A stretch of 64,000 nt of DNA from Actinomycetota bacterium. GTDB taxonomy: Bacteria > Actinomycetota > Actinomycetes > Nanopelagicales > Nanopelagicaceae. Below the pieces are notes generated by a model. It was given only the letters and a program-made list of their open reading frames with translations, was not told where the DNA came from and ran no database searches. Made by a program: the position numbers and the translations under genes. The stretch spans positions 62,001 to 126,000 of the forward strand of contig BGON01000002.1 of NCBI GenBank assembly GCA_003569265.1, given 5' to 3'. Shown here one piece after another: positions 54,294-56,782 of the stretch (its first letter is position 1; each line of letters starts with the position of its first letter).

Positions 54294-54693
54294 TATCCAC
54301 ACTCTCAGCAGGTGTTACTGGTGGATTAAGACTTAGAAAGGTTGGGGATTCAGATGGCTTCATCCCTAACGCAGTTGCAGCTTTGGCTAAGTTCTCAGGT
54401 GCTGCAATGCCATCAATCTGACGATTGATTGCTTCACGTTGATCACTGACCATCTTTGCCTCAAGCTTTAAATGACTAAGCGTGAAAGCATCTTGTGCAA
54501 GCAATGTATTGATGAAGAGAAGGAACATCAATGCAAGGATGCCTACGACAGATACAAACTTGGCAAAATACTTACGGTTTTCTTGGCTCTGCTCTGAAAC
54601 ATCTGGAACTAATTTAAGTGCTACTTCTGCAGTCTTAGTTGCAATGATTTCACGTGAGCGAGTGATTACAGGAGCTAGCGCCGTCATTGCCAT
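54286..54693 (-). CDS. ftsL: FtsL-like division protein
   Basis: 135 residues. A cytoplasmic N-terminus of about 43 residues, one membrane span (FVSVVGILALMFLLFINTLLA), then a short coiled-coil (LSHLKLEAKMVSDQREAINRQIDGI) and a proline-rich tail. The sequence is poorly conserved, as usual for FtsL; the call rests on topology and its position between rsmH and ftsI. The start shares its A with the rsmH TAA (TAATG). Confidence 0.85.
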   Translation of the reverse strand: MAMTALAPVITRSREIIATKTAEVALKLVPDVSEQSQENRKYFAKFVSVVGILALMFLLFINTLLAQDAFTLSHLKLEAKMVSDQREAINRQIDGIAAPENLAKAATALGMKPSESPTFLSLNPPVTPAESVDNG

Positions 54694-55645
54694 TATGCAG
54701 CCACTCTTTCAATAGCACGCAGACGAACTGATGCCGAGCGCGGATTTTCATTGAGTTCTTCTTCTGTTGGAACTTCGCTGCCACGAATAACAAGTGAGAA
54801 CTTGGCAGCAAATTCAGGTAGATCAAATGGCAGACCACGAGGTGTGCCAGAGGTTGTCGATGCCACAAATAACTCTTTAACGATGCGATCTTCAAGGGAT
54901 TGAAATGACATCACTACTAAGCGAGCACCAATGTCGAGTAGCTCCATAGCCGCTGGAAGGGCACGGGTGATAGCACCCAGCTCATCATTGGTTTCAATGC
55001 GAAGAGCTTGGAAAGTGCGCTTGGCAGGGTTTCCACCCGTGCGACGAGTTGCCGCTGGTATCGCCTCTTTAATTAGATCGGCTAGCTGAGAAGTTGAGTT
55101 GAGCGGTGCAATCGCACGGGCTTTAACAATTCTCTCCACCACTCTTGTAGCAAACTTTTCTTCGCCATATGTGCGCAAAATCTTCACTAACTGGCCTGGC
55201 TCATAAGAGTTAACAATCTCGGCAGCCGTTAGTGATTGGCTGCGATCCATGCGCATATCTAGTGGGGCATCGTGTGAGTAAGAAAAGCCACGTTCGTTTG
55301 ATCTAGCTGCATAGAGGAAACCCCAAGATCAAAGAGAGCACCATCTATTTTTGTAAAACCGTGGGAAGCAACAACATCGCTAATCTGGTCAAAGGTTGCA
55401 TGGGAAGTGAGCAGGCGATCGGCAAATGGAGCAAGACGAGCAGTTGCCCCAGCAAGGGCATCTGCATCACGATCAATACCGATAACAGTCAAGTGAGGGA
55501 ATCTAGTGAGCAGCGCTTCGGTGTGACCACCTGCGCCAAGAGTTGCATCGACAATAACTGGATGAGCAGAGGCTTGAATAGCAGGGGTTAGTAAATTAAT
55601 ACAACGATCTAGCATCACAGATATATGTGCCACGTTGTTATTCAC
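54693..55645 (-). pseudogene. rsmH: rsmH (16S rRNA m4C1402 methyltransferase) with an apparent one-base deletion
   Basis: Two reading frames together make one RsmH. 55259-55645 encodes the N-terminal part (GTG start with GGGGGAG before it; SAM motif VDATLGAGGHTEALL, IGIDRDADAL, ALFDLGVSSMQLDQT). 54693 to about 55295 encodes the rest (MRMDRSQSLTAAEIVNSY, FQALRIETNDEL, SFQSLEDRIVKELF). Inserting one base near 55295 (TTCG to TTCCG on the plus strand) restores LDQT-ERGFSYSHDAPLDMRMD, the family consensus. The repaired product is about 317 residues, normal length. Either a sequencing/assembly error or a real break; I think error is likelier, as the downstream coupling to ftsL is intact. Confidence 0.88.
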
Positions 55646-55714
55646 CCTCTCCCCCTTTCAACTCATACGTAAGTTTTTTCTTTTCTTGCGCTTCACTGCA
55701 GTGCTCTCACCTCT

Positions 55715-55794
55715 GGTCACCGCCGGCCGACGGATCTGTTTTATAGCGGCGCCGGGGAAGTGGCGCCGTTATTTTCGAAAGGTCGGCGGTGACC
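55715..55794 (-). promoter_or_regulatory. Large nested hairpin in the mraZ-rsmH gap
   Basis: The outer arms 55715-55728 and 55781-55794 match over 11 bp (GGTCACCGCCG) plus two more after one mismatch. An inner 7-bp stem CGGCGCC/GGCGCCG (55747-55753 with 55762-55768) has an 8-base loop. It occupies half of the 162-base gap before rsmH. No T-run follows on the minus strand, so it may be an attenuator-like leader structure or a protein-binding site rather than a plain terminator. Confidence 0.65.
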
Positions 55795-55807
55795 ACAAAT
55801 GAGAGAG

Positions 55808-56239
55808 TTAGAACAAGCCTGGGAATACCTCCTCTGAAACATCGGCAAATCCCTTTTCGCGATCTGCTAGATATTTATTCCAAGAAGTTGCATCCCAAAT
55901 TTCAACGCGAGTGTTTGCACCAATAACAACGCAATCTTTTTCAAGTCCTGCATATGTGCGAAGTCCTTGAGGAATAGTTACGCGACCTTGACGATCAGGA
56001 ATCTCATCATGTGCACCTGCAAACATCACACGCATGTAATCGCGAGCTGATTTTGCAGTGACTGGCGCTTGTTTTAGCGTCTCTGTAATAACTGAAAACT
56101 CTGCTGATGGAAAAACATAGAGACAACGTTCTTGTCCTTTAGTAATTACTAAACCTGAAGAGAGTTCTTCACGAAATTTTGCGGGCAAAATTAAACGGCC
56201 CTTGTCATCAAGGCGTGGCTCGTGGGTGCCAAGAAACAT
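55808..56239 (-). CDS. mraZ: Transcriptional regulator MraZ
   Basis: 143 residues with two SpoVT/AbrB-like halves. [26 protein letters not shown] carries the first DxKGR motif, and [27 protein letters not shown] carries the second as DRQGR. MraZ forms rings that bind direct repeats at its own promoter and controls the dcw cluster. AGGGGG about 10 bases before the ATG. First gene of the cluster, preceded by the striking 10-bp-phased repeats. Confidence 0.96.
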
Positions 56240-56290
56240 TTTTAGCGCCCCCTTCCCCAGGTTCGCTGCGCTTACTTTCTACGCTTAATT

Positions 56291-56380
56291 CCCCACTTTA
56301 CTCCACTTTCCTCCTTTTTCAACCACCTATCGCCACTATTTACCCCTTTGAACCCCCAGTCGCCCCACCCCTCCCCACCT
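56291..56380 (-). repeat. Nine 10-bp phased repeats upstream of mraZ (candidate MraZ operator array)
   Basis: Read on the minus strand from 56380 to 56291, the sequence divides into nine consecutive 10-base units with GG at positions 7-8 in all nine and G at position 5 in eight. Examples are AGGTGGGGAG, AATAGTGGCG, GAAAGTGGAG and TAAAGTGGGG. E. coli MraZ is known to bind TGGGN repeats separated by 5 bases (10-base period) and Mycoplasma MraZ binds AAAGTGG repeats, and both forms appear here. The array ends 52 bases before the mraZ start and covers its likely promoter. Confidence 0.8.
56295..56322 (-). promoter_or_regulatory. Predicted mraZ (dcw cluster) promoter
   Basis: Minus strand: -35 TTGAAA (56322-56317), 16-base spacer, -10 TAAAGT (56300-56295), start expected near 56288, giving a leader of about 50 bases. 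Both hexamers lie inside the 10-bp repeat array, so bound MraZ would block RNA polymerase. Confidence 0.6.
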
Positions 56381-56393
56381 GTTTTTAAGCATG

Positions 56394-56418
56394 AAAAAAG
56401 GGCCCCCGACGGGAGCCC
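56394..56418 (-). terminator. Rho-independent terminator after the DUF3040 gene
   Basis: Minus strand: stem GGGCTCCC with GGGGGCCC (one T-G wobble) around a 3-base loop, followed by six T (56399-56394). Ends the DUF3040 transcript just before the mraZ promoter and isolates the dcw cluster from upstream genes. Confidence 0.88.
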
Positions 56419-56440
56419 TTGGATCGAAAGTGAGAGTTAG

Positions 56441-56782
56441 TTAGCCGTTATTGCGCTCATCCCAGCGTTGTTCAAGGCGAGCGCTCATGGAAGATGTGCG
56501 CTTGCTCTTTGGCATGGATGGTCGGCCGATCGATGAGATAGCTGTGATGACCCCGCCTAGAGCGATGATGAAGCCAAGAACTCCCACAGGTGTTGTCTTT
56601 GAAATCAGACCGGTAAAGAGGACCAGAATTCCAAGGACAACGAGTCCAAGGCCCAGCAGAATACGGTTTTTGCCAAGGGGCTTAACCTCACCAGAAAGAG
56701 CTGAAACTAGGCGTGGATCCTCCGTCATTAGCGCAGCTTCCATCTCCTGGAGCATTCGCTTCTCATGATCAGATAAGGCCAT
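56441..56782 (-). CDS. DUF3040 membrane protein
   Basis: 113 residues from the ATG at 56782, which gives the family N-terminus MALSDHEKRMLQEMEAALMTEDPRL. An upstream in-frame start at 56803 adds seven non-family residues and is rejected. Two membrane spans (RILLGLGLVVLGILVLFTGLI and VGVLGFIIALGGVITAISSI) and a basic tail follow. Actinobacterial family of unknown function, commonly found next to dinB and mraZ as here. Confidence 0.9.
   Translation of the reverse strand: MALSDHEKRMLQEMEAALMTEDPRLVSALSGEVKPLGKNRILLGLGLVVLGILVLFTGLISKTTPVGVLGFIIALGGVITAISSIGRPSMPKSKRTSSMSARLEQRWDERNNG

Follow-up and report, generated by a model that had tools for sequence, protein, structure and literature searches.

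The mraZ promoter in the window, the 64,000-nucleotide stretch of DNA analysed here, is overlain by an array of phased G cores that probably constitutes an upstream-extended, putative MraZ operator; judged from the sequence, the probability of this reading is about 0.7. The array sits at an mraZ/dcw promoter, holds at least three same-strand GTG/TGGG boxes at a 10-base period, and keeps its phase between species. The window derives from an acI freshwater actinobacterium (GTDB Nanopelagicaceae, class Actinomycetes), whose 642 kb genome is 42% complete. In what follows, "family" denotes the acI group and "class" the class to which it belongs. The features are collected in Table 1.

Table 1. Features of the mraZ promoter region in window coordinates, with boxes named by the position of their GG run
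Feature	Coordinates	Strand	Remarks
Array of nine 10-base units	56291..56380	minus	every unit has GG at its positions 7-8
Box 0, AAAGTGGGGA	56290..56299	minus	overlaps -10 element; GG in 89/89 family upstreams, own genome counted
Box -10, AAAGTGGAGT	56300..56309	minus	within promoter spacer; GG in 89/89 family upstreams
Box -20, AAAAAGGAGG	56310..56319	minus	overlaps end of -35 element; no TG before GG; GG in 89/89
Box -30, TAGGTGGTTG	56320..56329	minus	overlaps start of -35 element; GG in 89/89 family upstreams
Box -40, ATAGTGGCGA	56330..56339	minus	GG in 89/89 family upstreams
Weak box, AAAGGGG	56343..56349	minus	GG run from -52; GG at -50 in 81/88 of the family
Box CTGGGGG	56353..56359	minus	GG run from -63; within the window's ten extra bases relative to siblings L004, L006 and L034
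Distal doublet, proximal member, GTGGGG	56363..56368	minus	run from -72
Distal doublet, distal member, GGTGGGG	56373..56379	minus	run from -82 (siblings: -72)
-35 element, TTGAAA	56317..56322	minus	sigma-70-like match
-10 element, TAAAGT	56295..56300	minus	sigma-70-like match, 16 nt from -35
mraZ	55808..56239	minus	143 aa; presumed to regulate the array; PF02381 in two stretches (138.1 bits)
Intrinsic-terminator-like hairpin	56398..56420	minus	follows the upstream DUF3040 gene

Architecture of the array

The initial annotation described nine back-to-back 10-mers with an invariant GG at unit positions 7-8, and direct reading of the minus strand from 56380 to 56291 finds this in 9/9. The accompanying consensus, NNN[A/T]G[G/T]GGNN, holds for the GG but is looser elsewhere, as position 4 is A or T in 7/9, position 5 is G in 8/9, and position 6 is G or T in 8/9; the unit GAAAAAGGAG breaks it at positions 5 and 6. 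The longest in-phase GG run is nine at period 10 and only 2 or 3 at any of the remaining periods between 6 and 15. Likewise, the suggested autocorrelation of the region peaks for GG pairs at lags 10 and 20 (15 and 11 pairs), with 9 and 9, and 7 and 7, at the neighbouring lags. Nine GG at period 10 arise in 1/20,000 dinucleotide shuffles of the 90 nt array and 0/20,000 of a 160 nt region; at any period from 6 to 15, they arise in 0/4,000 shuffles at either length, where the maximum is eight. On these shuffles, chance and composition are rejected as the source of the array. Tandem Repeats Finder (TRF) recovers just 2.2 copies of the array repeat because the units have little in common beyond the G core.

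As predicted, the array overlies the promoter: TTGAAA-16-TAAAGT, the sole sigma-70-like match in 56200-56480, lies inside it, and mraZ then follows. By the start of each GG run, the boxes in the window fall at 0, -10, -20, -30, -40, -52, -63, -72, and -82, a mean spacing of 82/8 = 10.25, as compared to 72/7 = 10.3 for the usual eight-step array of the family. An exact 10-base spacing therefore applies to the proximal boxes from 0 to -40, but with the GG-run start as landmark the distal spacing is 10-11. As the distal runs start off the exact step, the exact 10-base phase is carried there by runs of four or five G. TGG cores, allowing up to two bases from phase, occupy six of the slots in the window rather than nine. 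As read here, the array comprises five boxes on the promoter, then a weak link, then a distal group rich in G.

A three-box pattern was also sought across the window's own genome (42% complete). It gives six matches, four of them inside the array, and the reversed control gives two. Both matches outside the array lie within open frames (one of 408 aa; for the other, frames of 196 and 117 aa on opposite strands) and do not resemble an intergenic operator. A further candidate for this promoter, an MtrA site, was rejected. The MtrA consensus consists of GTAAC-type half-sites, and exact GTAAC/GTTAC is absent from the 400 nt upstream of mraZ in the three loci searched (the window, L034, and L004).

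The presumed regulator and its transcript

MraZ is a ring-forming, AbrB-like protein, and the product of the first gene downstream of the array is clearly one by its sequence, with the conserved residues intact. D11, K13, G14, and R15, together with Q84, G85, and R86, are invariant across 16 aligned MraZ sequences and are kept in the window protein. It matches solved MraZ chains with E values of 4e-20 to 1e-21, those of PDB 9qlr, 9sx6, 9sz7, 9qlg, and 9r4j at about 1e-21. It shares 99% identity with MraZ of IMCC19121 (L034), 93% with the protein from a Candidatus Planktophila record (L052), and 90% with its counterparts on two Planktophila chromosomes (L080, L085). The structure predicted from 13 close sequences is poor (mean pLDDT 44.6).

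Several observations concern the leader and the region downstream. Between mraZ and rsmH, a divergent mraW RNA (RF01746; 55693-55812, minus strand) matches the full model at 26.6 bits (E 0.0035), below the gathering score of 50, and the fold z-score for 55690-55807 is -7.4. The CTTCCCC of the mraW RNA loop occurs 400-900 nt past the mraZ start in 90/90 family, 8/8 class, and 0/21 other-phylum loci. The mraZ leader (56240-56284, minus strand) carries the complementary GGGGAAG, found in 87/90 family, 0/8 class, and 0/21 other loci. Within 260 nt downstream of CTTCCCC, 82/90 family loci also carry GGGGRAG or GGGGRGG, which in the window directly precedes rsmH. Pairing of CTTCCCC with GGGGAAG, either long-range or as a pseudoknot, is possible. 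The rsmH gene (54693-55645, minus strand) is present as two open frames, both matching PF01795, where L034 has a single frame of 317 aa; the split reflects either a frameshift in the window genome or an assembly error.

Conservation of the phase in the acI family

The initial annotation proposed alignment of related upstream regions as a check, and the family does keep both the 10-base period and the GG positions. Among 90 distinct family upstreams, the window's own genome included, 89 hold a conserved GTAAAGTGG anchor. From this anchor, GG is present in every one of them at 0, -10, -20, -30, and -40 (Table 1), in 81/88 at both -50 and -60, in 59/87 at -70, and in 6/86 at -80, as compared to 1/88 at -45 and 6/88 at -55 off phase. 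This persists in 39 representatives whose distal segments share under 55% identity: GG stands at -50, -60, and -70 in 27, 32, and 15 of them, and off phase at -45, -55, -65, and -75 in 2, 4, 4, and 5. In 117 family upstreams, 151 of the 177 occurrences of upstream GTGG fall at phase 0-2 of 10, and a strict distal pair, found in 71/117, falls at phase 0-2 of 10 in 67.

Run lengths were taken from a larger set of 118 family upstreams, of which 113 were used and five dropped, with duplicates counted once; L106, whose start was not recognised, was dropped from the family upstreams, and for 20 unnamed loci the start was placed by match coordinate rather than start codon. The exact run from the anchor is five steps in 17, six in 1, seven in 28, eight in 62, and nine in 5 (the window, L039, L086, L100, and L128). 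Tolerating shifts of one or two bases gives five in 10, seven in 25, eight in 66, nine in 10, ten in 1, and eleven in 1. Thus the nine units of the initial annotation stand as nine exact GG steps in the window, but eight is usual in the family (62/113). By GG-run start, the family boxes lie at 0, -10, -20, -30, and -40, then mostly near -51, -62, and -72. TGG is present in 18/94 at box -20, in 89/94 at -40, in 28/93 at -52 to -50, in 71/~92 at -62 to -60, and in 63/~91 at -72 to -70.

The closest relatives differ from the window by a whole step. Siblings L004, L006, and L034, whose MraZ is 99% identical, have eight steps; the window is one 10-base step longer, and the distal doublet is shifted from -62/-72 to -72/-82. 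This ninth step is known from assembled sequence. The exact run of five in 17/113 includes L008 and L036, whose MraZ is also 99% identical to that of the window.

A whole-step difference is what growth by slippage could produce, and the G-rich composition and the short 10-base repeat detected by TRF point the same way. If so, only three or four core boxes of the G-rich stretch would be functional. However, the sequence between the cores varies without loss of phase: runs begun at -40 reach 3-5 steps in 95/113, and those begun at -45, -43, and -47 reach 0 steps in 111, 106, and 108 of 113. Slippage alone is rejected on this persistence, and is considered highly unlikely as an account of the array. 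A phase that is stable while the inter-core letters drift instead points to a protein that would read the DNA along one face of the helix.

The G-runs could also have been kept as a G-quadruplex that controls the promoter, as has been claimed for the mraZ promoter of Staphylococcus aureus in an account given in PMC11796246. The window does contain a canonical motif at -82 to -59 (56376-56353, minus strand). Across relatives this motif is not kept, occurring between -95 and -43 in just 28/113 family upstreams, window included, and in 41 when the span is -95 to +5 (four of 117 upstreams were too short and were dropped). The 85 upstreams that do not have the motif nevertheless carry GG at -50, -60, and -70 in 70, 75, and 46 cases, and off phase at -45, -55, -65, and -75 in 2, 7, 19, and 16. 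A quadruplex also has no reason to hold a 10-base phase. It is rejected as the cause of the conservation and, as an explanation of the array, is very unlikely. As a guess, the quadruplexes reported at other mraZ promoters may be MraZ boxes that were noticed for their G-runs.

A general box model and the family-class comparison

A general box model was built from 102 mraZ upstreams outside the family, seeded with AAAGTGGAGT, and has the consensus AAAGTGGAGN, which closely resembles the mycoplasma box in the literature, (AAAGTGKN3)3. The model outscores all 60 shuffles in 116/116 family, 48/48 class, and 50/54 other-phylum upstreams, L051 (24 nt upstream) and L200 (short) having been dropped from the scan. 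In the window it stops after six units, with a score of 32.4 (shuffles 5.8, sd 2.3, highest 14.7). Of the initial annotation, the MraZ-box-like unit, the overlap with the -35 and -10 elements, and the phase kept in the family are supported.

The best model segment in the family (116) has five units in 68, six in 23, seven in 19, four in 4, eight in 1, and nine in 1. In the class (48) it has five units in 27, four in 12, six in 5, and three in 4, and in 54 upstreams from other classes (the other-phylum set) it ranges from one to six, mostly three or four. For counts tied to the promoter, upstreams were placed on the -35 pattern where possible; the unplaced ones (27/118 family, 14/48 class, 54/54 other-phylum) were left out. 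In the placeable upstreams, 91/118 of the family and 34/48 of the class, the boxes share one register to the -35 element. TGG cores over 13 slots round the promoter have a family mode of six (39/91; range 3-8) and a class mode of four (12/34; range 4-7), most class members having four or five. Runs of contiguous GG across the promoter number 5-9 in the family (mode eight, 44/91) and 3-8 in the class (mode five, 11/34), and 11/34 of the class have seven or eight. As model units, TGG cores, and GG runs all overlap between the two groups, the family excess in number is modest. The description of the array as three times as long as the E. coli MraZ box was therefore an overstatement, since only six of its units score as boxes or have TGG, where most of the class has four or five.

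The clearer difference between family and class is one of position: upstream of the promoter as opposed to just after it. Box +3, downstream of the -10 element, is present in 30/34 of the class and 6/91 of the family, and in the class TGG seldom extends to slots +4 and +5 (6/34 and 1/34). The upstream boxes -2, -3, and -4 are present in 90/91, 74/89, and 81/89 of the family and in 10, 8, and 8 of 34 in the class. The operator may accordingly have been extended in opposite directions in different actinobacterial lines, downstream of the -10 element in most placed class members and upstream in acI.

The main rival to the extended operator concerns this upstream part. Here, just the promoter-proximal boxes would form the MraZ operator, and the G-rich distal doublet would be bound by a different protein or act as an activator-type element, which must lie on the promoter's side of the helix. 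Such a division would account for the change at -40/-50, with exact spacing below it and 10-11 spacing and GTGGGG cores above. It would also fit the point at which the model stops, at six units in the window and at five in 68/116 of the family, and the exact run that ends at five in 17/113, or in 10/113 when shifts of up to two bases are allowed. The distal cores, however, are likewise GTGG on the same strand and in the same phase, and boxes elsewhere in the actinobacteria also alternate, by eye, between GTGGAG and GTGGGG. An operator limited to the core boxes, with an unrelated element beyond them, is a possible but tentative explanation and the main rival. The upstream-extended operator has its own difficulties: in the window just six units score as boxes and six slots have TGG, box -20 has no TG, the box near -50 is weak, GG at -80 is found in just 6/86, the exact run is five in 17/113 (L008 and L036 among them), and by model unit count there is little to separate family from class. 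Near -50, the drop in box quality and the 1-2-base shift fit, in sequence terms, an extended operator in which a five-box promoter operator would be joined to the distal doublet.

Proposed mechanism

If the array is an extended operator, regulation likely involves: synthesis of MraZ from the first gene of the operon; its binding to successive boxes along a single helical face; and, at the boxes on the -35 element, the spacer, and the -10 element, obstruction of RNA polymerase, by which MraZ would repress its own operon. As boxes 0 to -30 overlap the -10 element, spacer, and -35 element, bound MraZ would exclude the polymerase. The upstream boxes typical of the family would raise occupancy cooperatively through extra contacts with the oligomer already bound or with another one, and their most likely contribution is thus added affinity and cooperativity. 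As in the initial annotation, it may be that MraZ binds here, that its ring wraps about 90 bp, and that control is graded.

As to how a many-subunit MraZ ring might use its operator, one possibility would be that the eight phased G cores usual in the family each provide a contact to one subunit of an MraZ octamer, with about 80 bp of DNA wound once round the ring in nucleosome-like fashion, the promoter within the wrapped turn, and the 10.25-10.3 bp spacing reflecting the helical repeat on a curved surface. This proposal arises because the usual GG run is eight and the spacing falls within 10.0-10.5. The TGG count argues against eight full boxes, and the proposal is regarded as unlikely. If true, the three-to-five-box operators found elsewhere would leave some of the ring unfilled, and the ninth step in the window would begin a second turn.

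The sign of control could also differ from repression. According to PMC8475190, MraZ acts as a repressor of its own cluster in E. coli and Mycoplasma genitalium, and in M. gallisepticum, by the same account, MraZ overexpression was accompanied by more FtsZ. The family constitutes a natural operator series of five to nine phased steps in one promoter register, so that box number, position, and helical phase are separable by experiment.

Comparison with known MraZ operators

The E. coli MraZ box, reportedly described by Eraso and co-workers in 2014, is said to consist of three TGGGN repeats with 5-base spacers. The Mollicutes box is (AAAGTGKN3)3 (Fisunov et al. 2016, as cited in PMC5282649), and mycoplasma MraZ binds as an octamer in the account of PMC5282649. 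MraZ is described as a toroidal octamer in PMC7761207. The same source places the E. coli boxes downstream of the -10 element and describes, for Burkholderia cenocepacia, an MraZ-bound fragment with four 7-nt repeats and 3-nt spacers, again downstream of -10.

A search of the open-licence literature, a body without the main MraZ papers (Eraso 2014, White 2022, Fisunov 2016), found nothing on mraZ promoters of acI or on more than four MraZ boxes. MraZ boxes are already known; an upstream array of such length is new as far as that literature goes.

The window array shares with the Mollicutes box the direct repeats, the GTG core, the 10-base period, and the location at a dcw promoter. It differs in extent, with six TGG-core boxes within nine phased GG steps where the Mollicutes have three boxes, and the extra ones lie mostly upstream of the -35 element. 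With the E. coli boxes it has in common the G core, the 10-base period, and an autoregulated dcw promoter; the three E. coli boxes lie below the -10 element, whereas those of the window run from the -10 element up to -82 from the anchor. The B. cenocepacia site is built on a comparable 7+3 nt plan but, unlike the window array, lies downstream of -10. The mraZ promoters of other class members (34/48 placed) share with the window three boxes in identical register after the -35 element; unlike the family, their next box is downstream, at +3.
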